Shown: piece after piece, positions 9,002 to 28,176 of the stretch
Numbering within the stretch: position 1 is the stretch's first letter
How the letters are laid out: each line of letters begins with the position of its first letter
NCBI GenBank assembly: GCA_017549145.1
Contig: JAFYVM010000028.1
Span: forward strand, 1-51,709
DNA from: Bacteroidales bacterium
Lineage (GTDB): Bacteria; Bacteroidota; Bacteroidia; Bacteroidales; UBA932
Direction: 5' to 3'
DNA: 51,709 nucleotides
Notes under the pieces: model-generated
Database searches by the model: none
The model's input: only the letters and a program-made list of their open reading frames with translations
What the model was told of the DNA's origin: nothing
Program-made: the position numbers and the translations under genes

Positions 9002-10272
9002 TACAATTCAAGTTTTTTCAAAATATTTCTAGCCTCCTTCAAGATTTCCTTCTCTCCTGGAACCACTCGATTTCTCATAACGAAGCGACCCTGACAGATA
9101 ACGGAATCAACACAATCACTATGTGCTGAGTACAACAGATTTGCCAGGAACGAACCTGGTGAAAGGAAGCTGTAATTATCTGTATCAATGATAAGAATAT
9201 CAGCCAAAGCACCCTCTTCAAGCTTACCGATATTAAGTCCAAGACCCTTTCCTGCATTTTCAGTGGCCATCGCAAGAACATCCTCCATATGCATAGCAGT
9301 AGGATCGTTTCTCCATGCTTTCTGAATCATGGCAGAAGTCTTCATCGTCTCAAGCATATCGAGATTATTAGATGAAGCACAACCGTCAGTACCAAGACAG
9401 ATATTGGCGCCCGCCTCCTTCAACTCATTATAAAGGAATTTATATCCAGAAGAGAGTTTAAGATTTGAGTTCACATTGTGAACACATGTAACTCCCCTCT
9501 TACCAAGAATCTCGATATCCTTCGGAGAAAGCCAAAGTGTATGAGCAGCGATCACATCAGGACCAAGAACTCCCAACGAATCAAGGTACTCAACCGGCGA
9601 CATACCGCCATGAAGCGCCTTGCAATCCTCGATTTCCTTCTCAGTCTCAGATAAATGGATATGAATCTTCAAGCCTCTTTCGCGAGCGAAATCCACAGCC
9701 CAAAGCATCATAGGCTCGCTCACAGAATAGATAGCATGGATCGCGATTGCGAACATTGATTTCTCCGGCCAGTTCTGAGCTTCCTCATACATTTCAAGAC
9801 ACTGAACTTTCTGTCTCTCAGACTCTTCCGGAGTATTTCTATCACAGATAACATATGCAAGAACAGGTCTGAGTCCCATCTCAAGGGCCGCCTTTCTGGC
9901 CATAGGCATATGCCAATAATGGTCATTGAAAGTAGTGGTTCCCGTCTTGATCATCTCAAGGCAAGCCACCTTCGTACCATAGTAAACATACTCCTCATCA
10001 ATCTTCTCCTCTATATGCCATATACGGTCCAACCACTCATGGAAAGCGATATCCTCACCCACTCCACGCATCAATGACATAGCTGCATGCGTATGCATAT
10101 TAACAAATCCAGGAATGGCGGTCTTACCCTCACAATCCACGACTTCCACATCGGCTCCAACCTCCTTAAACTCACCACCAGCCGGCATTATAGAACGTAT
10201 AACGCCATTGGAAATGAATATATCAGAAAGCTGACCATTCAAGAATATATTTCTCAAATATATCTTTCCCAT
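9001..10272 (-). CDS. Amidohydrolase: S-adenosylhomocysteine/5'-methylthioadenosine deaminase-like
   Basis: A 423-residue member of the ATZ/TRZ (MtaD) group of metal-dependent amidohydrolases. Metal ligands are visible as [11 protein letters not shown] (about residue 60), [10 protein letters not shown] (about 205), AHTLWLS (about 243) and [11 protein letters not shown] (about 293). Members deaminate S-adenosylhomocysteine, methylthioadenosine or adenosine to the inosyl compound. Coupling to a purine nucleoside phosphorylase supports a nucleoside substrate, but the exact one cannot be told. A TAACTTTG box lies 23 bases upstream of the ATG. Confidence 0.85.
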
Positions 10273-10295
10273 TACAATCCTAAATTAAATGTCTT

Positions 10296-10303
10296 CAAAG
10301 TTA
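10296..10303 (-). promoter_or_regulatory. -7 box for amidohydrolase-phosphorylase operon
   Basis: TAACTTTG on the minus strand fits TAnnTTTG, 23 bases upstream of the ATG at 10272. Confidence 0.55.
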
Positions 10304-10346
10304 TAAACTATTTTCAAAAAATTGACCGGATTCCAATTGTTTTGAT

Positions 10347-10354
10347 TATTTTTG
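10347..10354 (+). promoter_or_regulatory. -7 box for 2-oxoacid oxidoreductase operon
   Basis: TATTTTTG on the plus strand fits TAnnTTTG, 42 bases upstream of the ferredoxin ATG at 10397. With the minus-strand box at 10296-10303 it makes a divergent promoter region. Confidence 0.5.
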
Positions 10355-10396
10355 AATGTTTTTAGAAAAACTACATAAACTTAACATAAAACAGAC

Positions 10397-10615
10397 ATGG
10401 CATTCAAAGGAGCTATCGAAGTTGACACTCAGAAATGTAAGGGATGTTCTGTATGTGTCGAAAATTGCCCGACCAAAAGCATTCAGCTTTCTAAATTGGT
10501 CAACAGCAAGGGTTATCACTACGCGGAAATGGTTGGAGACGCCTGCATAGGTTGTTCAAACTGTGCAATCGTCTGCCCAGATTCGGTAATTACAGTCTAC
10601 AGAGTAAAAATTTAA
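10397..10615 (+). CDS. 2x[4Fe-4S] ferredoxin subunit of 2-oxoacid:ferredoxin oxidoreductase
   Basis: A 72-residue dicluster ferredoxin with CKGCSVCVENCP and CIGCSNCAIVCP. It is the delta-type subunit that shuttles electrons from the catalytic complex. It is the first gene of a four-gene operon whose other members are the VorB-like, TPP-binding and gamma subunits, separated by only a few bases. Confidence 0.92.
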   Translation: MAFKGAIEVDTQKCKGCSVCVENCPTKSIQLSKLVNSKGYHYAEMVGDACIGCSNCAIVCPDSVITVYRVKI

Positions 10616-10619
10616 CGGT

Positions 10620-11702
10620 ATGGCAGAGAAAATTCTAATGAAAGGAAACGAGGCGATTGCCATATCGGCAATTCGCAACGGCGTGGACGGATATTTCGGA
10701 TATCCGATTACTCCACAGTCTGAAGTTATGGAAACTCTCATGAAGGAGAGACCTTGGCTTACTACAGGAATGGTTGTCCTTCAGGCAGAGAGTGAGACAT
10801 CTTCAATCAACATGGTATATGGTGGCGCAAGCTGTGGAAAGAAGGTAATGACTTCTTCAAGCTCACCTGGTATCAGCCTTATGTGTGAGGGTCTCAGCTA
10901 CCTCGCAGGAGCAGAGCTCCCATGCGTTATCGTAAACTGCCAGCGTGGCGGTCCTGGTCTTGGAACTATCCAGCCTAGCCAGAGTGACTATAACCAGTGC
11001 GTAAAGGGTGGAGGACACGGAGACTACAACGCTATCGTGCTTGCACCAGCTTCAGGACAGGATATGTACGACTTCGTTGACTGGGGATTCGACCTCGCAT
11101 TCAAGTATCGTACTCCTGTCATCATTCTTGCTGACGGTATCGTTGGTCAGATGATGGAGAAGGTTGAACTTCGTCCTGAGAAGCCACGCATGACTAAGGA
11201 AGAGCTTCTCGCAGCTGCACCTTGGGCAACTACAGGAAAGACTGCAGACAGACCATATAATGTAATCACTTCCCTCGCCCTTGAATCTGATGTTCAGGAG
11301 AGATTTAACAGAAAGCTCGCGGCCAAGTACGAGGTAATCAAGGAGAAGGAGGTAAAATATGAGGAGTATCAGACTGAAGATGCTGAGTATCTCTTCGTAG
11401 CATTCGGATGTTCATCACGTATCTGCGAGGCAGTTGTTGATCAGCTTCGTGAGGAAGGCGTGAAAGCCGGCTTGCTCAGACCAGTTACACTTTTCCCATT
11501 CCCGACAAAGAGACTCCAGGAACTTTCCGGACAGGTGAAGAGCATGATGAGTATCGAGCTCAACCTTGGCCAGATGGTAGACGACGTAAGACTTGCTGTC
11601 AACGGCGCTTGCCCAGTGGGATTCTACGGAAGACAGGGTGGTATCATCTACACACCTGATGAAATTGTAGAGGAGTTCAAGAAGTTCAACAATCTGAAAT
11701 AA
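10620..11702 (+). CDS. vorB: 2-oxoacid:ferredoxin oxidoreductase alpha subunit (VorB-type)
   Basis: A 360-residue subunit with pyruvate:ferredoxin oxidoreductase domain I (GNEAIAISAIRNGVDGYFGY, then PITPQSEVME) and domain II in the C-terminal half (YLFVAFGCSSRICEAVVDQL). The enzyme oxidatively decarboxylates 2-oxoacids to acyl-CoA, or runs in reverse, with ferredoxin as carrier. The sequence resembles proteins named VorB in Bacteroidota (3-methyl-2-oxobutanoate dehydrogenase). The true substrate, branched-chain 2-oxoacids or 2-oxoglutarate, is not provable from sequence. Confidence 0.88.
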   Translation: MAEKILMKGNEAIAISAIRNGVDGYFGYPITPQSEVMETLMKERPWLTTGMVVLQAESETSSINMVYGGASCGKKVMTSSSSPGISLMCEGLSYLAGAELPCVIVNCQRGGPGLGTIQPSQSDYNQCVKGGGHGDYNAIVLAPASGQDMYDFVDWGFDLAFKYRTPVIILADGIVGQMMEKVELRPEKPRMTKEELLAAAPWATTGKTADRPYNVITSLALESDVQERFNRKLAAKYEVIKEKEVKYEEYQTEDAEYLFVAFGCSSRICEAVVDQLREEGVKAGLLRPVTLFPFPTKRLQELSGQVKSMMSIELNLGQMVDDVRLAVNGACPVGFYGRQGGIIYTPDEIVEEFKKFNNLK

Positions 11703-11710
11703 GCACAACT

Positions 11711-12484
11711 ATGAATATCGAAGATATCAAGAAACCCGAGAACATCGTCTACAAGAAGACTCCTATTCTTACAGACAATGTAATGCATTACTGCCCAGGA
11801 TGTTCTCACGGTACAGTACATAAGCTCGTCGCTGAGGTTATCGAGGAGATGGGCATCCAGGAAGAAGTAATCGGAGTAAGCCCGGTAGGTTGCTCTGTAT
11901 TCGCATACAACTACCTTAATATCGACTGGCAGCAGGCTGCTCACGGACGTGCTCCAGCTCTTGCTACAGCAGCTAAGAGATTGATGCCTGAGAAGTATGT
12001 ATTCACATATCAGGGTGACGGTGACCTTGCATCAATCGGAACAGCAGAAATCATCCACGCTTGCAGCCGCGGTGAGAATATCGTAGTAATCTTCATCAAT
12101 AATGGTATTTATGGCATGACTGGTGGTCAGATGGCCCCTACTACCCTCCTTGGCATGAAGACATCTACAACTCCATACGGACGTGATGCGAAGCTCAACG
12201 GATTCCCGCTTGTTCTTGCACCTATGATTGCTCAGCTCGATGGTACTGCATTCATCACAAGACAGTCAGTACACACAGCAGTAGCAGCACGCAAGGCAAA
12301 GGCTGCAATCCGCAAGGCTTTCGAGTACAGCCAGAAAGGTATCGGTCTTTCATTCGTAGAGATTGTTTCAACTTGTAACTCTGGTTGGAAACTCAGCCCT
12401 ACAGCAGCTAACAAGTGGATGGTAGAGAACATGTTCCCTAAGTATCCGCTCGGCGACATTAAGGATGTATTAAAAAACGAGTAA
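11711..12484 (+). CDS. 2-oxoacid:ferredoxin oxidoreductase beta subunit, TPP-binding
   Basis: A 257-residue thiamine-pyrophosphate subunit. The TPP/Mg motif begins at GDGDLASIGTAEIIHA and ends in NNGIYGMTGGQ (about residues 101-140). CPGCSHGTVHKL near residue 28 is the conserved N-terminal CxGC segment. It begins 8 bases after the alpha gene and ends 2 bases before the gamma gene. Confidence 0.92.
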   Translation: MNIEDIKKPENIVYKKTPILTDNVMHYCPGCSHGTVHKLVAEVIEEMGIQEEVIGVSPVGCSVFAYNYLNIDWQQAAHGRAPALATAAKRLMPEKYVFTYQGDGDLASIGTAEIIHACSRGENIVVIFINNGIYGMTGGQMAPTTLLGMKTSTTPYGRDAKLNGFPLVLAPMIAQLDGTAFITRQSVHTAVAARKAKAAIRKAFEYSQKGIGLSFVEIVSTCNSGWKLSPTAANKWMVENMFPKYPLGDIKDVLKNE

Positions 12485-19172: not shown

Positions 19173-19601
19173 GTGAATCAATTTATACCACATAACATTG
19201 AAGACTGCGACTCATTTGAGGGCGGTCTTCTTGGCCATGTAAAGGCAGGTTTCCCCTCTCCTGCCGAGGATTACCATGAGAAGCTTGACCTCATCAGACT
19301 GCTGGTCAAACATAGAGCATCTACCTTCTTCTTCAGGGTGGATGGTGTGTCTATGGTGGATGCCGGCATGGATGAGGGAGATATCATTATCGTGGACCGT
19401 TCAGTAGATCCTTATAATAACTGTAAGGCTGTGTGCTATATCGACGGAGAATATACAGTCAAGAGAATTGAAATCGGAGATAATTGTGCGCGTCTTATGC
19501 CGGCCAATGAGAACAATACCACATACAAGCCTATCGAAGTGACCCCTGAAAACAATTTCCTCATCTGGGGAGTTGTAACCTGGGTTATCAAGAAGATGTA
19601 A
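19173..19601 (+). CDS. umuD: UmuD-like S24 family self-cleaving protein
   Basis: A 142-residue LexA/UmuD-type serine protease fold without a DNA-binding domain. The cleavage site Ala-Gly is seen in HVKAGFPSPAED (about residues 20-31). The catalytic serine is in VDGVSMVDAGM and the general-base lysine in YTVKRIEIG. It begins with GTG 3 bases after the previous stop; no suitable ATG is in frame. After self-cleavage it would join UmuC to form the translesion polymerase V. No LexA gene is in the window. Confidence 0.92.
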   Translation: MNQFIPHNIEDCDSFEGGLLGHVKAGFPSPAEDYHEKLDLIRLLVKHRASTFFFRVDGVSMVDAGMDEGDIIIVDRSVDPYNNCKAVCYIDGEYTVKRIEIGDNCARLMPANENNTTYKPIEVTPENNFLIWGVVTWVIKKM

Positions 19602-19606
19602 GAGTC

Positions 19607-20872
19607 ATGTTTGCCCTTGCCGACTGTAACAACTTCTTTGCTTCCTGCGAAAGGGTCTTCAGACCTGACCTTCAAGGTAAGCCTGTCATTGTACTATCCA
19701 ACAATGATGGCTGCGCTGTTGCACGTAGCAATGAAGCCAAGGCACTGGGCATCAAGATGGGAGATCCATATTTCAAGATCAAGCATATAGTAGAGAAACA
19801 TGGAGTGGCAGTATTTTCGGGCAATATGGACCTTTATGGGGATATGTCACAGAGAGTACGCTGGGTCCTTGAAGAATATGCCCCAGCAGTGGAGGTCTAT
19901 TCTATTGATGAGGCTTTCCTTGACCTTAGAGGTATTAGCAACATTGATTTTGATGCTTACGCAAAAGAGATTTCCGCACGCTGCTGGAAGATGACATCGA
20001 TTCCCGTTTCGGTGGGCATCTCCCCGACTAAAACGCTTGCCAAGATTGCGTCTAAGCTCTGCAAGCAATATCCTAAGCTTCGCGGAGGATGTTATATGCA
20101 CAGACCTCAAGATATCGAGAAAGTGCTACGCAAGTTTCCTATTGAGGATGTTTGGGGTATCGGACGTCGCTCAGCAGCGAAACTGCATGAAAGACATATT
20201 AAGACAGCATACGACTTCACTCAACTTCCGGAGTCGGCTGTTCTGGGCATAATGGGCATTACTGGTGTGCGCACATGGAAAGAGCTTCGAGGCATTCCAT
20301 GTATAGAGTTCGAGGATGGTTTTGAAGCGAAACAGTCAATCTGCGTATCACGTAGTTTTTCTTCTGAAATATACGATCTTAAAGAACTTCAGGAACAGAT
20401 TGCCAACTTCGCCTCATCAATGGCTGAAAAACTCAGAAAACAGCACTCTGTGACAAGCGAAATGGCAGTCTTTGCATACACCAACCGTTTCAAGGAAAAT
20501 CTTCCGCAGACACATTCAAGTTCATTGGTTTCATTCGCTAGTCCAACCGCAGAGCAAAGAACCATTGTCACTAGTGCAGTACAGGCAACCCGCGAGTTGT
20601 TCCGCAACGGTTACGGCTATAAGAAAGCTGGAGTCATCGCCACAAGTATCATAGATCAGAGCGAAATGATGCACTCCCTATTTGAAGATACAGAGGCCAT
20701 TGAGCGTGAGCACAAGATTACCTCAGCGTTGGATTCGATCAACAGACTATATGGAGACGGAGCCATCAAGCTTGCCATCCAAGGCAGCGGCCGCATAAAA
20801 AATTCCAGCGAGAGGCAGTCCCCACACTACACAACCCGCTGGAACGATATTCCTAAAGTGTCAATAAAATAA
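19607..20872 (+). CDS. umuC: UmuC, catalytic subunit of Y-family DNA polymerase V
   Basis: A 421-residue Y-family translesion polymerase. The N-terminal motif is FALADCNNFFASCERVF, and the catalytic acidic pair is in VYSIDEAFLDL. SVGISPTKTLAKIASKLCK and the helix-hairpin-helix segment FPIEDVWGIGRRSAAKL follow. The C-terminal little-finger region and UmuC tail are present, so it is full length. It starts 5 bases after umuD. Its end faces the AT-rich operon 20880-26271 with only 7 bases between the stops. Confidence 0.95.
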   Translation: MFALADCNNFFASCERVFRPDLQGKPVIVLSNNDGCAVARSNEAKALGIKMGDPYFKIKHIVEKHGVAVFSGNMDLYGDMSQRVRWVLEEYAPAVEVYSIDEAFLDLRGISNIDFDAYAKEISARCWKMTSIPVSVGISPTKTLAKIASKLCKQYPKLRGGCYMHRPQDIEKVLRKFPIEDVWGIGRRSAAKLHERHIKTAYDFTQLPESAVLGIMGITGVRTWKELRGIPCIEFEDGFEAKQSICVSRSFSSEIYDLKELQEQIANFASSMAEKLRKQHSVTSEMAVFAYTNRFKENLPQTHSSSLVSFASPTAEQRTIVTSAVQATRELFRNGYGYKKAGVIATSIIDQSEMMHSLFEDTEAIEREHKITSALDSINRLYGDGAIKLAIQGSGRIKNSSERQSPHYTTRWNDIPKVSIK

Positions 20873-20879
20873 ACACAAT

Positions 20880-22211
20880 TTATTTAACTATAACAGAACA
20901 ATAATACCGCGACCCATTATATGTAACCCATACTTTTGTATTACCCCTTTTCATCCCACGCACAATGCCAGAAGACACAGCATAAGCAACCTTGTCGTTC
21001 TCCGAATACCAACCTTGCACCTGGCTAGGATTTACATTTTTAAGCACTAATTGCGTTTGTTCACCTATTTTTAGTGTTACACGGGCGTAATTCAAGTAAG
21101 GTTGAACAGATGATGAGGAGATAGTGGACTTCTTTAATGCATTTTGTAATTTAGAGTAAGTTGTTTTATACTTTTCATCTAATGAATCATAACTCTTCTT
21201 AAGCTTAATATACTCCTTTTTCTGTGTATCCTTTTCAGATTTTAATCTTTTATTTTCATCTGCTTTTTCATACAATAGAGTTTTAAGACTATCTCTAGTC
21301 TTTTCCCTTGAAACAATAACCTGCTTACGCTTTAACAACAGTTCATCCTGTTTTGCTATTGTTTCTTCACATATTGTTTTTTGTTCTCGGAGAGAAACAA
21401 TAGTATTTGCATAGCTCTCAGATTTGATCTTTAGACTAGATATTTCCTGCTTAGCCTCGATCAAACTAGAGTTCATGAAGAATAACGATATCGCACCGAT
21501 GAATAATATCAAACCTAATATAACTACAACTTGAAATTGCTTCTTCTGTTTTTTTACCTTACTTAATTCCTCTGTAAGTTCTTTATTGGCTTTTTCAAGT
21601 AAATTCTTTTCAGCAGAGATTTTTTTTAGCCTACTAGAGAAACCTTTAATTGCAATTGAGTCAAAATCAGAATTCTTATAAACTCTAATAACATTTGAGT
21701 TTAAAATAGCATTTTTTATATCAGCGACAGATGCAGACTCGGCTAATGTAGCTTGCTCCAACGCACTAATAGAATAATTTAGTGGAGGCAATGCTTCAAA
21801 TGTAAGTTTAGAGTCTGCTATAAGCAAGTCTATATGTCGCACTATCTTATCAATTGCCTCTTTTTGGTTATGAAGACGAGTATTTTTATTTACAACATCA
21901 CCCTCCTCATTAAACTCAAGGATATCACCTGAGAGGATAATATTAGAGACACACTCTTCGAAACATGAAAATAAAGCCTTAATACTTGGCGTATACAAAC
22001 TATTAAAAGCAACGGCAAGTCCCAAATACTTATCTATTCCCTTTAAATTCCTTACATAGACATAATATATAAGACTATCTGCACGACATAAAGTAATAGA
22101 AGTTTGGGCGTTTTTATTCACACCCAAACTTAAAAGTTGTTTTGTTGAATCATCTGGATATTGCGTATACCCAGAACCTAATTCACCAAAAATATATGTT
22201 GAATGATTCAC
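20880..22211 (-). CDS. Unknown single-pass coiled-coil protein with C-terminal Big-2-like domain
   Basis: A 443-residue protein, last gene of the five-gene AT-rich operon. Residues 1-195 form a folded cytosolic-looking domain that begins YIFGELGSGYTQYPDD. Residues 198-225 are a basic coiled coil ending KKQKKQ. Residues 226-246 are a membrane segment (FQVVVILGLILFIGAISLFF). Residues 250-362 are a long coiled coil. Residues about 370-443 resemble a bacterial Ig-like (Big-2) domain: GWYSENDKVAYAVSSGIVRG, then GNTKVWVTYNG. Positive residues before the membrane segment put the N-terminus in the cytosol and the Ig-like end outside. It starts with GTG 6 bases after the protease gene. The design matches the 486-residue protein at 22748-24208. 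The function is unknown. Confidence 0.75.
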   Translation of the reverse strand: MNHSTYIFGELGSGYTQYPDDSTKQLLSLGVNKNAQTSITLCRADSLIYYVYVRNLKGIDKYLGLAVAFNSLYTPSIKALFSCFEECVSNIILSGDILEFNEEGDVVNKNTRLHNQKEAIDKIVRHIDLLIADSKLTFEALPPLNYSISALEQATLAESASVADIKNAILNSNVIRVYKNSDFDSIAIKGFSSRLKKISAEKNLLEKANKELTEELSKVKKQKKQFQVVVILGLILFIGAISLFFMNSSLIEAKQEISSLKIKSESYANTIVSLREQKTICEETIAKQDELLLKRKQVIVSREKTRDSLKTLLYEKADENKRLKSEKDTQKKEYIKLKKSYDSLDEKYKTTYSKLQNALKKSTISSSSVQPYLNYARVTLKIGEQTQLVLKNVNPSQVQGWYSENDKVAYAVSSGIVRGMKRGNTKVWVTYNGSRYYCSVIVK

Positions 22212-22217
22212 CGATAC

Positions 22218-22748
22218 TTATTTTAGCTTAAACTTAATTATCTTGGCATCATTATCAATTGTATACGATGCTACTCGATCCAACACCTCGTTACCTAATA
22301 ATACAGGGGCAGCGACATTATTTGACACCTGAACTACAACATTATCACATTTGATAATTCTTTCACCATCAGTCAATTCTAATGTTTTTACATTGAATAC
22401 CATATCTTCAACAATACTACCATCAGCGATTGCTGACCTTGATGTTCCTAGATAATCATCATCTGTCAATAAACCTCGTTTAGCCAACATTTTAGCTTCT
22501 AACAAAGAAATCAATGTTTGAGAGCACCCTGTATCAAAAATCATATCAACACTAACTCCATTTATTTTAGCAGATACGTATTTAACTCCATGCTGTTCAA
22601 CAAATGGGACATTGATAGTCTCATAATCAAGCGAACCGTCTTCACTATATTCTACATATGGGATTGCAGATCTCTTTTTTTGTCCAGAATTACAAGAGCA
22701 TAGTAAAACACTTATTATTGCTATTGTAAGTAGTTTTATAATCTTCAT
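22218..22748 (-). CDS. Retropepsin-like aspartic protease, probable lipoprotein
   Basis: A 176-residue protein with a signal peptide ending in a lipobox-like segment (SVLLCSCNSG, Cys17 or Cys19), so probably anchored on the periplasmic side. The catalytic motif is MIFDTGCSQTLIS (Asp72-Thr-Gly). A second family hallmark, hydrophobic-hydrophobic-Gly, appears in APVLLGNEVL (about residues 147-156). The size and one DTG per chain imply a homodimeric retropepsin-type protease (clan AA). Its ATG overlaps the stop of the 486-residue protein by one base (TAATG). The substrate is unknown; the periplasmic coiled coils and Ig-like domains encoded on each side are obvious candidates. Confidence 0.85.
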   Translation of the reverse strand: MKIIKLLTIAIISVLLCSCNSGQKKRSAIPYVEYSEDGSLDYETINVPFVEQHGVKYVSAKINGVSVDMIFDTGCSQTLISLLEAKMLAKRGLLTDDDYLGTSRSAIADGSIVEDMVFNVKTLELTDGERIIKCDNVVVQVSNNVAAPVLLGNEVLDRVASYTIDNDAKIIKFKLK

Positions 22749-24208
22749 TATTTCACAGCTTTAAATGTTCTAGTTGCAACTTTTACATTATGTATATAAT
22801 ATGAGATCACAACATCGCCTTCTCTCATCACTGTTACACTCGTCCTTGGATTCTCTTTGTTTGTAATTGAGAAACCATCAATTTTCCAAATACCAGGAAC
22901 AGTTGGAGCATTTTTGGCAACTGCAGTAAAAACATTTCCAACCTTCATATCACCAGACTGATACTCAACCATATCAATCTTAACATTTGAGAAGTCTTTC
23001 TTAATTTGTTCTTCTCGGGCGATATGTTTCTCTAAGTCTTTCTCAAGTTTTGTTTTTACCGAATCTAGTTGGACTAATTCTTCTTTTAGAGCCTGCAACT
23101 CTTTTCCTACATTAGAACTACTAGGTGTACCCAACCAAGTGTATGTAGAAAGTCCTATTAAAAGTGCCACCAAAGCAACAATCACAGAATAAAGAATAAA
23201 TGGTTTCTTCTGTTTTGGCTGCAATTGAATCTGTCCATTACTTATTTCTTTCTCCTGCTGCTTGTGCATCCTAGCAATTTCGGCCAATTCGCACAAAGGT
23301 TGCTCTATGCGTTGAATTAATTCTCTTGCTGTTGTATGAGAATGAAATTTCTGTAACTGACTCGACAAATCTTTGATTTGTAACTCATAGTTAGAAACTT
23401 TAGCTTTCTCAGCAACAAGAGCTTTTTTATATTTTTCTATTGTTTCGCTAAGTTCACCAATCTGGACGCTAGTAGTTTTAAGATTATCCTGCATTGATGG
23501 TATAACCTTATTTTGAGTTTCGAGTTGCTCAATAATTACCTTAAGACTACTAATTTCATCATTTTGCTTGGCAAGTTGTGAATTAATTCTTTCTAATCTT
23601 ACATCCTTAGCAGCATAATCAGGAGAAATCAAAATTTTACCATAGCTTAAAGTCGAATCAAAAAATGACTTACTATCAACATCATTGAGATGATAATACG
23701 AATTTCTTTCTGCATACTTCTTGACTAGGTTGGCATCTATTTCCTCGAAGTCATTTGCAAAATTGGTATTAATCTGCTCAGTAAAAATATTTGTTGCTGC
23801 AGTAAGTTTAGCAGAAACTAGCTCAAATTTATCGATTTTATATTTTTGGCTATCTCCATTTACAGACAAGACTTCACTCAAAACATATTTATTATACACT
23901 TGAGACAACAAGTCATATAAATAATGTACTGCAGTACAATAATGTCCTTCGACCTTAAAAGTCATTGCGAAATATGATCCAGGACGACCATCTTCTGCAA
24001 TAACGTTCTTATAATTGATAAATGTGTAATAGCTAAAATATTTCCCCTCGAATTTTCTGATTTCTAAAATCATTAAGGCCTTTACATCCTTATAGACATT
24101 TCTATAGACTTCTTCAGATCCGTAAAAGGATTCATAATATTTATCAAGAGTACCACCCCACACCTGGTGGCCACGTGGTACTCCATGATATACTAACTCG
24201 TACTTCAT
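22748..24208 (-). CDS. Unknown single-pass coiled-coil protein, GTPase-associated candidate
   Basis: A 486-residue protein directly after the GTPase gene. Residues 1-200 form a cytosolic-looking domain that begins YELVYHGVPRGHQVWGG; a short G-x4-G-like pattern near the start is shared with the 443-residue protein. The opening faintly resembles my memory of GTPase-associated (GAP1-type) N-terminal domains, but this is weak. Residues about 205-310 are coiled coil. Residues 336-358 are a membrane segment (ILYSVIVALVALLIGLSTYT) preceded by a basic stretch. A second coiled coil spans about 365-405. A beta-rich Ig-like end (WKIDGFSITNKENPRTSVTV) completes it. The stop is 4 bases from the GTPase side and overlaps the protease start. 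Confidence 0.75.
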   Translation of the reverse strand: MKYELVYHGVPRGHQVWGGTLDKYYESFYGSEEVYRNVYKDVKALMILEIRKFEGKYFSYYTFINYKNVIAEDGRPGSYFAMTFKVEGHYCTAVHYLYDLLSQVYNKYVLSEVLSVNGDSQKYKIDKFELVSAKLTAATNIFTEQINTNFANDFEEIDANLVKKYAERNSYYHLNDVDSKSFFDSTLSYGKILISPDYAAKDVRLERINSQLAKQNDEISSLKVIIEQLETQNKVIPSMQDNLKTTSVQIGELSETIEKYKKALVAEKAKVSNYELQIKDLSSQLQKFHSHTTARELIQRIEQPLCELAEIARMHKQQEKEISNGQIQLQPKQKKPFILYSVIVALVALLIGLSTYTWLGTPSSSNVGKELQALKEELVQLDSVKTKLEKDLEKHIAREEQIKKDFSNVKIDMVEYQSGDMKVGNVFTAVAKNAPTVPGIWKIDGFSITNKENPRTSVTVMREGDVVISYYIHNVKVATRTFKAVK

Positions 24209-24212
24209 AATT

Positions 24213-25178
24213 CTAGCCTCTAACTAGTTTAAGAATATTACTCCAAAGTAATCTTGGATATTCATCTACACCCTGAATAAATTTCTTAACTGTATTGCCA
24301 CTAGCATCTGTACCATTTGGGAATGCACCATTTGAGAACGGAACTAGACTACAATTATATTTCTTAAATAATTTAGTAATCGGATTCTGATTCATAAATG
24401 GAACTAATATACCTGGATACATCTGTTTTACATCCGCAATAACAAGATTTAAATTAACATGTCCTGGCGACATAACATACTTTGTTTCATCAACCTTATT
24501 ATATAGGAATACGGCTTTATCCTGTGCACGCATATTAGTCTTCAAATCCTTAATCTTATTAACATATCCAGCTCTATCATGTGGATCTTTCCAATTTGGT
24601 TCTAGCATATAAACCCAAATCTTTCTATTGTTGCTGTTTAAGATTGTATGCACATACGAAGGGAATGCTCTATTGGGATTTTCTGGACTATAATAATACT
24701 CACCTGGCGCCTCAAGTATCTGACATACTCTTTTACCCGTTTTATCTAGTACTTCAACTAGCATAAAACTAATCATATTTGTACCAACTGCAGCATTGGG
24801 ACTATTAACAAGCATGTTGTAATCTTCACACATTTTAGCATAATGAGAATCGTGAGAAGGTCTAAACGACTTTATTGGAGAAACTGTATATCCATACTTC
24901 ACCAAGAATCTTGTAAGACGAATTAAGGAGATTGTCTTACCACATGTTGTAGGGCCAAACAATACTACTATAGGAGCTTGGTCATCTGCAATATGCACCA
25001 TGATATTATCAGGGTTACTCAATTCAGCTGCAGAGAGTCCCAGTACAGTTGTTCCTGCCTGTGCATTTTGAGAAATTATAGAATCTGTATTGTCAACTAT
25101 AGTATCAACGTCATCTAATTCCGGTGTGATGACAACATCATCATTTGTACCACCGTTTAAATCAATTTTCTTAGCCAT
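24213..25178 (-). CDS. P-loop GTPase of unknown function
   Basis: A 321-residue soluble protein. The Walker A/G1 motif is GPTTCGKT (residues 75-82) after a predicted beta strand APIVVLF. The G4 motif NKVD (227-230) follows FLYNKVD and indicates guanine specificity. A DxxG-like G3 site is not canonical; EAPGEYYYS (156-164) lies where it would be expected. FSNGAFPNGT (281-290) could hold G5. The first 65 residues are acidic and probably disordered. It resembles TRAFAC-type GTPases seen in bacterial conflict and signalling operons, but I cannot name the family. It is the only predicted cytosolic soluble protein of the operon. Confidence 0.8.
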   Translation of the reverse strand: MAKKIDLNGGTNDDVVITPELDDVDTIVDNTDSIISQNAQAGTTVLGLSAAELSNPDNIMVHIADDQAPIVVLFGPTTCGKTISLIRLTRFLVKYGYTVSPIKSFRPSHDSHYAKMCEDYNMLVNSPNAAVGTNMISFMLVEVLDKTGKRVCQILEAPGEYYYSPENPNRAFPSYVHTILNSNNRKIWVYMLEPNWKDPHDRAGYVNKIKDLKTNMRAQDKAVFLYNKVDETKYVMSPGHVNLNLVIADVKQMYPGILVPFMNQNPITKLFKKYNCSLVPFSNGAFPNGTDASGNTVKKFIQGVDEYPRLLWSNILKLVRG

Positions 25179-25203
25179 ATTAAATTAAAAATTTTAATGA
25201 TTA

Positions 25204-26271
25204 TTAAATTGAATATTCATCTTTTTTAAATGCTAAATCAAAAAAGATGAATGCCGCAATATCTACCAGGATGGATATAACCACCCAAAAAATAAATCCA
25301 TGTCCTGCATATGCTCCCCTAAAAAAATCTGCCCACACATCCACAACACTGAGCACTCTTTTGACCTTTGTAACCTGATTTTCTGCCATATACAATTCTT
25401 TATCAGTCTCTGGTGCAAATGAAATATGCTTGTTATATGTCTTAATTGTTGCGTATGCTTTTGCTAATCTATCATTTACCTCTTTGATATCCTCGGCCTT
25501 ATTCAAATCTACAGAGCCATCCTTAATACCTTGCTCAACAAATCCAAGATTCTCCCAATCAGCCTTTGCCTGTGACATATATGTATTCTGATCTGCTGCC
25601 AGCATTGAAGATCTTATATTTTGTTTTTTAACATCTCTCAGTCCGTAAATCTTTGCTCTATAAGCATCTACTAATTTTTGTCTACTTTGTACAGAGATTC
25701 CCTTGTAGCTTAGAGGTTCAATTTTGGGGACCTCAAGCAAGGAGGCAAAGTCTGCAAGAATCCTTTTGGCATTAGGTCCAAAGCCAGGATTAGCATCATT
25801 TTTAATTTCACTTTCTAATTCTCCGAATTTAGTATTAACCATACCCTCGAATTCATTACAAGCCCTCTTTATCTTTTCCTCAATATTTGTATTATTTCTA
25901 AGTTGATCAAGATATCCCTTTGTCTGACCAATATCAGATGAGACCATATCACTTATAGTTCCACGATAAAAAAAGGTGTGAGTATTGGTAGGCATACTAC
26001 ATATAAGCCAAAATACAAGCGTTATCAAAATACCACCAGCTAATCTTAAACCTCTGTTCTCTAAGAAGACATTTTGATTTAGACTATCCACAATCATTTT
26101 TGTTCCTAGAGAAGCTATAACAAAAAATCCGACTGTAACAATCCAACACATTACAACTGGCCAATTTGGCATAAGTAAATGAAGTGACTCTTGAGTAGCC
26201 CAACAACTGACAGCTGCGAATGCAACGAACGCAATAGCAAAGAAGATCTTCTTGTAATTTGTCTCTCCCAT
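25204..26271 (-). CDS. Unknown four-TM membrane protein heading the GTPase operon
   Basis: A 355-residue protein with three N-terminal membrane segments (about residues 8-27, 37-58 and 77-97) and one near the C-terminus (about 323-345, FIFWVVISILVDIAAFIFF). Between them is a mostly helical domain of about 220 residues. Alternating topology places this domain outside the cytosol and both ends inside. No known motif is recognised. It is the first gene of the operon and lies behind a leader containing a large inverted repeat. I infer a sensor, scaffold or effector channel. Confidence 0.75.
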   Translation of the reverse strand: MGETNYKKIFFAIAFVAFAAVSCWATQESLHLLMPNWPVVMCWIVTVGFFVIASLGTKMIVDSLNQNVFLENRGLRLAGGILITLVFWLICSMPTNTHTFFYRGTISDMVSSDIGQTKGYLDQLRNNTNIEEKIKRACNEFEGMVNTKFGELESEIKNDANPGFGPNAKRILADFASLLEVPKIEPLSYKGISVQSRQKLVDAYRAKIYGLRDVKKQNIRSSMLAADQNTYMSQAKADWENLGFVEQGIKDGSVDLNKAEDIKEVNDRLAKAYATIKTYNKHISFAPETDKELYMAENQVTKVKRVLSVVDVWADFFRGAYAGHGFIFWVVISILVDIAAFIFFDLAFKKDEYSI

Positions 26272-26330
26272 AAGTAAATGTATTAGGTTAATTAGATTTC
26301 TCTCAGCGCCAAAGAGAGGATTACCTTAAA

Positions 26331-26511
26331 TGACGAAAGCGTGGCACTGTCGCTTATTCGTCTGAACCGGTCGTAGGAAACCTTGTGCACAAATAAGCCA
26401 CAATACCACGCCGTAATTCAGGATAGAATACGACGAAGTAACGAGCTTATTCTCTGCACTTTTGCGAATTTCCTACGTTCGTTCAGCGAGAATAAACTAC
26501 ACTTTCGTGTT
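26331..26511. repeat. Nested inverted repeat upstream of the GTPase operon
   Basis: Two copies of a 47-52 bp unit lie in opposite orientation, at 26352-26398 (plus) and 26445-26496 (minus). Both share TTATTC, CTGAAC, CGTAGGAAA, GTGCA and AATAAGC in order. Each unit is itself bounded by GCTTATT/AATAAGC-type ends and can form a hairpin. Similarity continues outside, ACGAAAGCGTGG on the left against ACGAAAGTGTAG on the minus strand at right. The 46-base centre contains another small hairpin (CGTAATTC/GAATACG). On the minus strand it would lie in the leader of the membrane protein gene. No reading frame is present. Confidence 0.85.
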
Positions 26512-26529
26512 TTTCAATATTTTCAAAAA

Positions 26530-26537
26530 CAAATCTA
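26530..26537 (-). promoter_or_regulatory. Candidate -7 box of the GTPase operon
   Basis: TAGATTTG on the minus strand fits TAnnTTTG. Transcription from here would give a leader of about 250 bases carrying the whole inverted repeat 26331-26511. Its first stem would be ACAC-GAAA-GTGT, a GNRA-type hairpin. A good -33 element is not evident. Confidence 0.4.
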
Positions 26538-26639
26538 AGTAATATTTTTCACAAATAATCATAAATTAATAATTATCGCTACTTGTCAATCTATCTGTTT
26601 ATGAAATCTAGTATTATATGTGGATGGTCATATTCTTCA

Positions 26640-26688
26640 AAATCAAATGCGACCACCTCACATGCATGTAAGTGGTCGCATTTGATTT
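26640..26688. terminator. Perfect 17-bp hairpin, candidate nhaA terminator
   Basis: Arms 26640-26656 and 26672-26688 (core AAATGCGACCAC) are perfectly complementary around a 15-base loop that holds the palindrome ACATGCATGT. It lies 133 bases downstream of nhaA. The following T-rich stretch is short, so it may be a terminator or a protein site. The rest of 26512-26820 is AT-rich and shows no gene. Confidence 0.55.
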
Positions 26689-26820
26689 ATGGTATTATTT
26701 CTAGTAGTTATATACAAGTTTACACCTGTAAAATTTATAACCTTATAGTACTCTAACAGGCTATATTATGTTTTCAAGGCATGCTTGTGTTCGAGGGGAT
26801 TATTTTAAGCAGTATAGGTC

Positions 26821-28176
26821 CTATGCTTCTTTCGGAAGTGTCTTGCTCAAAAGGGCGCAACCGAGGACGGCAGATATCACTGATCCGCAAAGCACGCCTA
26901 ATTTAGCCTCATTGAGGAGGGTAACTCCGGCATCACCGAGTCCTGAGTAAGAAAGGTCTGCAATAAACATCGAGACTGTAAATCCGATACCACAGACTAC
27001 GCATACACTTGCAAATGCTTTCCATGAGGTTCCATGCGGAAGAGTAACTATCTTTGCCTTGATTGCAAGCCAAGAGAATGTGAATACTCCAAGGAACTTA
27101 CCTGCAACAAGTCCTAGCATTACAGCAAGACCGACGCCAGAGAAGAGGCTTCCAAGAGACATCTGCGACAGATCGATTCCTGCATTTGCAAATGCAAAGA
27201 GAGGAATTACAAAAAAGTTGATGACTCCATGCAGGTTGTCCTCCAGATCCTGAAGCGGGCTGATCATCTTATCGGCTGCTGACTCAATACTCTTGAGTAC
27301 ATGTATTTCTTCATTTGTAAGCACCACGGTCTTATGCAGATCGTCCACATCGATGACAGGAAATTTATTGATTTGTCTTCTGATACGCTCAAGATAGTGT
27401 CCGGTGCCTTTCTTAAGAGATGCTGGTATACAAAGCGCCACAATAACTCCTGAGATAGTTGCGTGGATTCCCGAATTAAGCATCATATACCATAGTACGA
27501 GACCCACTACCAGATAGAATGACTTTGCTCTGACCTTGGCCATATTTGCAATAATCATTGCAGCGACACAGACTGCGCAGAGTCCAAGATAAAGCCAGCT
27601 GAGATCTGAGCTATAGAACAGCGCGATTACAATGATACCTCCAAGGTCATCGGCAACGGCCAAGGCAGCAAGGAACACCTTCAAGCCTACAGGCACACGA
27701 GTCTTGAAGACTGAAAGTACACCAAGCGAAAAGGCGATATCAGTAGCCATCGGGATAGCAAGTCCTCGCTGCATAGCAGCATCTGCCGGACAGAACAACG
27801 CAAAGACAAGAACTGGCACAAGCATACCACCACAAGCGCCGACGATAGGGAGCAAAGCTTTTTTCAAAGACGACAGCTCACCCACCATGATTTCTCGTTT
27901 GATTTCAAGACCCACAGACAGGAAGAAAATTGCCATCAGAAAGTCATTGATAACCATCATCACATTCATCGGATGACCGTTATGGCTGAAAAGGTTAAAT
28001 CCTCCTACAGACACAGCCATAGGATGCTGCCAAAGAGAAAAATACCACTCTTTAACTACGGGTATATTGGCGAAAATTAGTGCCAGGACAGTACAAGCGA
28101 TCAGGACAACGCTTGATGACACGTGCTTCTTGAACTTACTCAGGAAGCTATAATTTACATTCAAGGATTGTGGCAT
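26821..28176 (-). CDS. nhaA: Na+/H+ antiporter NhaA
   Basis: A 451-residue inner-membrane antiporter that exports sodium in exchange for protons. The family signatures are present: NDFLMAIFFLSVGLEIKREI and, containing the paired aspartates, ATDIAFSLGVLSVFKTRVP with VADDLGGIIVIALFYSSDLS. About 11-12 hydrophobic segments are seen. An insert of charged residues (about 230-275, HYLERIRRQINKFPVIDVDD) between membrane segments is typical of the longer Bacteroidota forms. It is last in the minus-strand run from holA, 73 bases after mntP. Confidence 0.95.
   Translation of the reverse strand: MPQSLNVNYSFLSKFKKHVSSSVVLIACTVLALIFANIPVVKEWYFSLWQHPMAVSVGGFNLFSHNGHPMNVMMVINDFLMAIFFLSVGLEIKREIMVGELSSLKKALLPIVGACGGMLVPVLVFALFCPADAAMQRGLAIPMATDIAFSLGVLSVFKTRVPVGLKVFLAALAVADDLGGIIVIALFYSSDLSWLYLGLCAVCVAAMIIANMAKVRAKSFYLVVGLVLWYMMLNSGIHATISGVIVALCIPASLKKGTGHYLERIRRQINKFPVIDVDDLHKTVVLTNEEIHVLKSIESAADKMISPLQDLEDNLHGVINFFVIPLFAFANAGIDLSQMSLGSLFSGVGLAVMLGLVAGKFLGVFTFSWLAIKAKIVTLPHGTSWKAFASVCVVCGIGFTVSMFIADLSYSGLGDAGVTLLNEAKLGVLCGSVISAVLGCALLSKTLPKEA

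Follow-up and report, generated by a model that had tools for sequence, protein, structure and literature searches.

The contig JAFYVM010000028.1 of Bacteroidales assembly GCA_017549145.1 (51,709 nucleotides, all of it analysed and referred to as the window) carries five minus-strand open reading frames (ORFs) between umuC and nhaA. In order of transcription they encode a protein with four predicted transmembrane (TM) segments (TM4), a P-loop GTPase, a coiled-coil membrane protein (CC1), a retropepsin-like protease (PEP) and a second coiled-coil membrane protein (CC2). The first three genes lie 25 and 4 bases apart, the third and fourth overlap by a single base, and 6 bases separate the fourth from the fifth. 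The G+C content per kilobase is 0.33–0.35 over 21–26 kb. It is 0.44–0.46 in the kilobases of umuC and nhaA on either side, and 0.376 at 18–19 and 26–27 kb, also close by. A preliminary description of the window had reported the five closely spaced genes, their GPTTCGKT, NKVD and FDTG motifs and their richness in A+T, all of which were found. Its TM counts likewise agree with hydropathy: four in the 355-residue TM4, one past residue 150 in each coiled-coil protein, and none in the GTPase.

The GTPase was found in 1 of 101 relatives, namely the window's own genome; across the order it turned up in 4 of 393 genomes (about 1%, own genome included). Each of the three other order genomes has a TM4 homologue upstream of the GTPase and a CC1-type gene downstream. 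When one genome from each of 84,980 species was scanned with an alignment of four GTPases, 53 loci were obtained, and contigs from viral collections added one more. The total of 54 is a lower bound, since the scan catches only relatives with two conserved peptides; L059–L061, which lie on the contigs of L023, L040 and L053, were left out of the counts. The titles name Bacteroidales or member families, except that L033, L043 and L055 are labelled Bacillota, perhaps through binning errors. All 54 loci have TM4 upstream of the GTPase at a distance of no more than 600 bases, with a macro-domain ORF intervening in L019. In 50 of the 54 a gene for a longin-type coiled-coil protein comes after the GTPase, no more than 60 bases away; 43 have two or more such genes, and 38 have PEP. 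At the 43 loci where the contig runs on for 4.5 kb or more downstream, the corresponding numbers are 41, 38 and 33. The four loci that lack an adjacent longin gene are L019, which ends there, L038 and L048, where a second GTPase intervenes, and L053, where CC1 has diverged.

Because these loci had been picked by their GTPase, TM4 and the longin domain were searched for independently in the 393 order genomes. TM4 gave matches with E<1e-80 in exactly the four GTPase genomes; five further matches, with E values of 6e-4 to 9e-4 and mostly in the helical loop, were taken as chance. A longin profile matched the same four genomes and two others of a single genus (G271 and G417), which have an orphan CC2-like gene. 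The gene that comes next, no more than about 45 bases away, encodes a protein judged by eye to combine a TM segment, MORN and a GH25 muramidase-like domain (the two together at L210, 6186–8632, and L211, 5216–7678). No GTPase or TM4 match was present at either orphan locus within the 14 kb read. Searches of plasmids yielded no match for the GTPase or CC1, and a search of phages none for the GTPase. The five genes are a real unit: the same genes recur in the same order at other loci, so the set is not a chance assembly; Bacteroides luti DSM 26991 (L010) has all five. Failure of the genes to co-occur in other genomes had been named beforehand, in the preliminary description, as an outcome that would refute it, and the genes do co-occur.

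The N-terminal domain of CC1 was modelled with a pLDDT of 94 and has a longin fold. Among solved structures it is matched best by a longin from an Asgard archaeon, by Lst4 and by FLCN-FNIP2; MglB is absent among the 50 structural matches listed, which excludes nothing. Profile comparison showed that the N-terminal domains of CC1 and CC2 are homologous. The CC1 domain is therefore a longin as modelled, and that of CC2 is probably longin-type by homology to CC1. The two N-terminal domains noted earlier thus stand as domains and are sharpened to one homologous domain, and the structure predictions proposed at that stage, made for the CC1 N-terminal domain and the GTPase, led to a longin and to a TRAFAC fold respectively. 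What is new here is the longin identity of the domain common to both coiled-coil proteins, which gives a concrete reason to think that CC1 and CC2 meet the GTPase. Their coiled coils are judged from weak matches to coiled-coil families. A likeness of CC1 to Lamassu LmuB, SMC and similar proteins was dropped as coiled-coil composition. TM4, the GTPase and the two longin domains of the window matched no Pfam or NCBIfam model at cut-off, and the family searches assign the set to no known housekeeping complex.

The GTPase has the G1 (GxxxxGK[ST]), G3 and G4 ([NH]KxD) motifs of TRAFAC GTPases. G3 reads LEAPGE in 52 of 59 aligned rows and takes other forms in 7. The structure model has antiparallel strands before G3 and TRAFAC neighbours in the PDB, with Gtr/Rag among the best, tied matches and SIMIBI GPN-loop GTPases lower in the list. 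The P-loop sequence matches SRP54 and FtsY, but a SIMIBI (SRP/FtsY-like) identity was rejected because the strand order and best neighbours of the model are TRAFAC. On this model the GTPase is of the TRAFAC class, and simple hydropathy detected no TM segment in 57 of the 59 rows. A second GTPase copy is present in 4 of the 54 loci (L021, L026, L038 and L048); none was found in the window's genome. Those of L026 (1075–1881, upstream of the module) and L021 (10454–11263, downstream) are very divergent, with end branches of 3.0 and 4.7 in the GTPase tree. The PADLOC mad8 model matched 45 of 55 GTPase relatives, at best with 2.5e-6, and did not match the window GTPase; the likeness may reside in the P-loop alone.

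By the same simple hydropathy, one TM segment lies past the longin domain in 46 of 48 CC1 and 50 of 53 CC2 proteins, with K and R richer before it, and four segments are present in 46 of 55 TM4 rows. As the longin domains are placed inside, the tails of CC1 and CC2 are predicted to face outwards, as is the helical loop of TM4 (about residues 94–325). The earlier picture is upheld in that the unit is conserved and is predicted to place its GTPase in the cytosol and to extend its membrane proteins beyond the cytoplasm. The tails show little conservation, with a mean column identity of 7%. Coiled-coil families are the ones that they match most often, none of them in more than 5 of 77, and BACON and Big_2 are each matched by one tail. 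Of two Ig-like domains proposed previously, that of CC2 is retained as a Big_2 match exactly at the Pfam cut-off; the one in the CC1 tail has no family support. Comparison of TM4 with PDB sequences returned 39 matches up to an E value of 1, the best 0.0014, and these were judged to be helical-bundle likeness.

PEP matches the retropepsin families PF13975 (E 2e-8) and PF13650 (E 4e-8), both above cut-off, as the preliminary description had supposed from the motif. The catalytic aspartate is present in all 39 aligned copies, as DTG in 36, DSG in 2 and DTA in 1; this count of the aligned column supersedes a strict five-letter pattern (38 of 43) and excludes a 688-residue protein of L005. With the family match and D[TS]G in 38 of 39 copies, PEP can be assigned from its sequence to the retropepsin-like proteases of clan AA. 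It had also been called lipoprotein-like: the N-terminal signal-like segment is there and the strict lipobox pattern is absent from the window PEP, so that a lipoprotein is no more than plausible. The L005 protein (9927–11993) has a retropepsin-like domain matching PEP and lies about 4.5 kb downstream of the module.

Other hydrolases are encoded downstream on the same strand at some loci. Caspase-domain proteins lie about 0.6 kb away in L021 and about 2.3 kb away in L045, and a subtilase-family protein lies 19 bases away in L054. BACON or OmpA-domain proteins are encoded downstream in L014, L038, L040 and L044. About 1.1 kb from the L045 module Pfam recognises a GH25 protein that also has a MORN repeat below threshold. 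These neighbours, which are few and possibly incidental, suggest that the variable 3′ part supplies interchangeable envelope-facing outputs. Both caspase-domain proteins (L021, 11881–14193; L045, 13300–15597) have a signal-like N-terminus and are followed by sigma-factor-like and anti-sigma-like genes recognised by eye; the sigma-like protein of L021 had no Pfam match.

Positions of the five genes and their features in the window
Feature	Position	Strand	Basis
TM4, 355 aa; segments 9–27, 39–57, 75–93, 326–344	25204..26271	-	ORF list, hydropathy, family in 54/54 loci
GTPase, 321 aa, soluble, TRAFAC as modelled	24213..25178	-	motifs, structure model
G1/P-loop GPTTCGKT, GTPase residues 75–82	24933..24956	-	motif, alignment
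G3 LEAPGE, GTPase residues 155–160	24699..24716	-	alignment, 52/59 rows
G4 NKVD, GTPase residues 227–230	24489..24500	-	[NH]KxD in 59/59 rows
CC1, 486 aa: longin domain (as modelled), coiled-coil-like stretch, one TM, tail	22748..24208	-	model, hydropathy
CC1 longin domain, residues 1–205 as modelled	23594..24208	-	structure model
CC1 TM, residues 337–355	23144..23200	-	hydropathy
PEP, 176 aa, retropepsin-like aspartic protease, N-terminal signal-like segment	22218..22748	-	Pfam, alignment, hydropathy
PEP catalytic DTG, residues 72–74 (predicted)	22527..22535	-	aligned column, D in 39/39
CC2, 443 aa, GTG start: probable longin-type N-domain, one TM, coiled-coil-like stretch, Big_2	20880..22211	-	homology, hydropathy, Pfam
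CC2 TM, residues 228–246	21474..21530	-	hydropathy
CC2 Big_2 Ig-like domain, residues 375–432	20916..21089	-	Pfam, at cut-off

No TTTG/TAnnTTTG promoter-like sequence was found near the operon, and no Rfam family reached its gathering score within 20500–27000. The operon is converged upon by LexA/UmuD-like and UmuC-like genes, named by eye (19173–20872), and the UmuC stop is 7 bases from the end of CC2. A perfect 17-nucleotide inverted repeat at 26640–26688, between the nhaA and TM4 genes, is perhaps the nhaA terminator.

The module has a lower G+C content than its flanks in 44 of the 47 loci with sufficient flanking sequence, by 0.076 on average. Among flanking genes no family recurs at more than 7 loci; the largest family consists of a coiled-coil accessory that lies within the module, and the second of an ABC transporter-like gene 4–8 kb away. 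Tyrosine-recombinase-like (integrase-like) genes, recognised by eye from their C-terminal motifs, are about 450 bases or less from the module in L041, L055 and L058. The GTPase tree mixes families, pairing Bacteroides luti with a Porphyromonas metagenome-assembled genome (support 100/98) and setting two Parabacteroides apart; 26 of its 56 inner branches are poorly supported, and labels of metagenome-assembled genomes may err. Because of the low G+C content, the unshared flanks, the integrase-like neighbours and the mixing of families, the module, which occurs in bacteria of the gut and rumen, is apparently mobile. The accessory follows the first longin gene in L032, L041, L045, L046, L049, L056 and L058 and is a coiled-coil-like protein with a median of 212 residues and mostly a signal-like start; the L041 copy has no Pfam match.

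In an NhaA-anchored comparison, five genomes of the same genus, with NhaA 75–82% identical, were read for roughly 10–11 kb beyond their NhaA; none of the 15 other window proteins tested was present there, neither those of the operon nor UmuC, so the comparison does not bear on the site itself. No obvious target-site repeat was seen at the window locus. Scans of the flanks at other loci used 77 proteins chosen by hand, mostly from 150 of 181 candidates. Among these PADLOC reported PDC-S01 in 3 and other families in 1 each, numbers that have no background rate to be read against.

No paper on this operon was found in the open-licence literature with the few search words used. Several known systems share parts of its design. 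Like Rag/Gtr with FLCN-FNIP (Lst7-Lst4 in yeast), it combines a TRAFAC GTPase with two longin-bearing partner proteins. The longin SNAREs Vamp7, Ykt6 and Sec22b have the same order of N-terminal longin, coiled-coil-like stretch and TM segment, but the operon proteins are bacterial and have a further coiled coil and a domain beyond the TM. TagF of type VI secretion has neither coiled coil nor TM, whereas the longin domain is here joined to both. MglA/MglB of Myxococcus xanthus likewise joins a bacterial GTPase to a partner of the roadblock/longin superfamily, but MglB is described as a roadblock homodimer (PMC10933270), and here two membrane proteins have longin-type domains. A 2016 review reports no detectable SNARE or coiled-coil domain in lokiarchaeal longins (PMC4917890), and in one Asgard archaeon, according to a 2024 paper, GTPase genes are generally not in operons with longin genes (PMC10933270).

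The explanation that we favour, about evenly balanced between belief and doubt, is that the operon encodes an inner-membrane GTPase switch spanning the envelope. The soluble TRAFAC GTPase would act at the cytosolic face. Known longins form pairs, as in FLCN-FNIP, C9orf72-SMCR8 and TRAPP, and by this analogy the cytosolic longins of CC1 and CC2 probably pair with one another and bind the GTPase, either regulating or reading it. A single TM helix is predicted to connect each of them to a coiled coil and a small domain on the outside. TM4, whose gene adjoins that of the GTPase, probably serves it as an anchor or, by way of the helical outer loop, as a sensor. When the nucleotide state changes, the CC1/CC2/TM4 assembly would pass this on to a hydrolase that faces the envelope, usually PEP and in some relatives perhaps the caspase-, subtilase- or GH25-type enzymes encoded nearby; as a single-DTG protein, PEP would need to dimerise. 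Every protein contact in this scheme is inferred, as are the way in which the signal runs, what PEP does and what the operon is for.

A closer tie to an established system would be that the module is a divergent DO-GTPase/GAP1 system, one of the GTPase-centred conflict systems, some with caspase effectors, described by Kaur et al. (2020, PMC7159879); of the systems described so far these come closest to it in logic. The GTPase would then be a DO-GTPase, CC1 and CC2 relatives of GAP1, TM4 would take the place of GASH, and PEP would replace the caspase; we consider this unlikely. The two designs share a helical protein, a TRAFAC GTPase, a GTPase-associated protein and a peptidase-type effector in one operon, in equal order in annotated examples, and both have variable parts, with TM segments, extracellular domains and C-terminal TMs of some GAP1 proteins among the published versions (PMC7159879). 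The words longin and roadblock do not occur in the main text of that paper. LEAPGE at G3 recalls the conserved Walker B glutamate of DO-GTPases (PMC7159879), and the G3–G4 spacing, 69–78 where measured, compares with 72–74 in 10 of 13 DO-GTPase2 proteins. Yet although 6 of 55 GTPases match DO-GTPase2 (PF19993), they do so weakly (best E 0.0053), and the window GTPase matches neither PF19993 nor PF19975 at the Pfam cut-off; the scan of relatives lists 25 of 62 families, so sparse PF19975 or GAP1-N matches could lie outside it. Untrimmed, hhalign gave 84% to DO-GTPase1 and 46% to DO-GTPase2, at a setting without GTPase controls; with the GTPase trimmed the values were 56% and 53%, against 72% for FtsY, 44% for Ffh, 19% for 'Era' and 12% for Der. 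The 'Era' set, chosen by a loose motif and aligned at 100% with the Der set, is no independent control because it is probably mostly Der. Single sequences reached at best 60%, for one DO-GTPase2, and the rest overlap 12 control GTPases. A combined longin profile scored 16.0 against GAP1-N1, above all 200 column shuffles, but the score was reached by 19 of 200 shuffles for CC1 alone and 74 of 200 for CC2 alone, so that kinship is marginal. Family searches of the window proteins found no GAP1-N, GASH or FNIII match, and hhalign gave 0.1% for TM4 with GASH. The paralogous GTPase pair, present in 38% of DO-GTPase/GAP1 systems (PMC7159879), was not found in the window's genome, which carries little weight as the pair is not universal. 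Membership of these systems is not established: the family-level searches speak against it for the window proteins, and the profile comparisons do not decide it. Two Bacteroidota genomes contain DO-GTPase/GAP1-N1 operons with GASH (L062 and L063).

Whatever its kinship, the inner-membrane switch that we favour is likelier to serve a conditional role in envelope stress or conflict with phages or competitors than housekeeping, because of its sparse, apparently mobile distribution and variable 3′ end; a housekeeping complex was rejected because most relatives lack the module. One compatible reading, which names a purpose, is an anti-phage or anti-competitor system in which the sensing of a phage or of an attack on the envelope would make the GTPase fire; the envelope hydrolases would then harm the envelope of the cell itself and so halt the attacker's spread. 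We regard it as plausible but tentative, because of distribution and analogy alone: the module is rare and patchy, poorer in G+C than its flanks and without a common flank gene, it adjoins integrase-like genes at three loci, one copy is on a contig from a viral collection, its variable part encodes peptidases and other hydrolases, and conflict systems centred on GTPases with caspase effectors are known (PMC7159879). Against it, PADLOC was empty for the window GTPase, TM4, PEP and CC2 and matched CC1 mostly on its coiled coil, the 77 hand-picked neighbours, scanned with no background set, gave no clear defence island, and sparse mobile genes serve many ends; the earlier suggestion of defence gained nothing from these checks. 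A device for polarity, secretion or envelope assembly, like MglA/MglB or a machine regulated by TagF, in which the retropepsin matures or clears a component and nothing is killed, is improbable: with no flank gene family in more than 7 loci there is no fixed secretion or motility partner nearby, and the sparse distribution speaks against core cell biology. Rather doubtful, too, is the broader proposition of a categorically new kind of signalling machine in bacteria, in which a GTPase of Rag type and two longin proteins anchored in the membrane, with a layout otherwise known from eukaryotic SNAREs, make up a trans-envelope switch that fires hydrolases beyond the inner membrane from the cytosol and serves Bacteroidales as a mobile conflict system.

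Longins that partner Rag- and Rab-like GTPases have a central place in the membrane signalling of eukaryotes, and their prokaryotic history has been discussed largely from Asgard archaea. Two bacterial proteins that appear to join a longin domain to a coiled coil and a TM segment, encoded beside a GTPase, would offer a small, testable model of such pairs across a membrane. For the bacteria that carry it, the operon may be a means of controlling envelope proteolysis from the cytosol.

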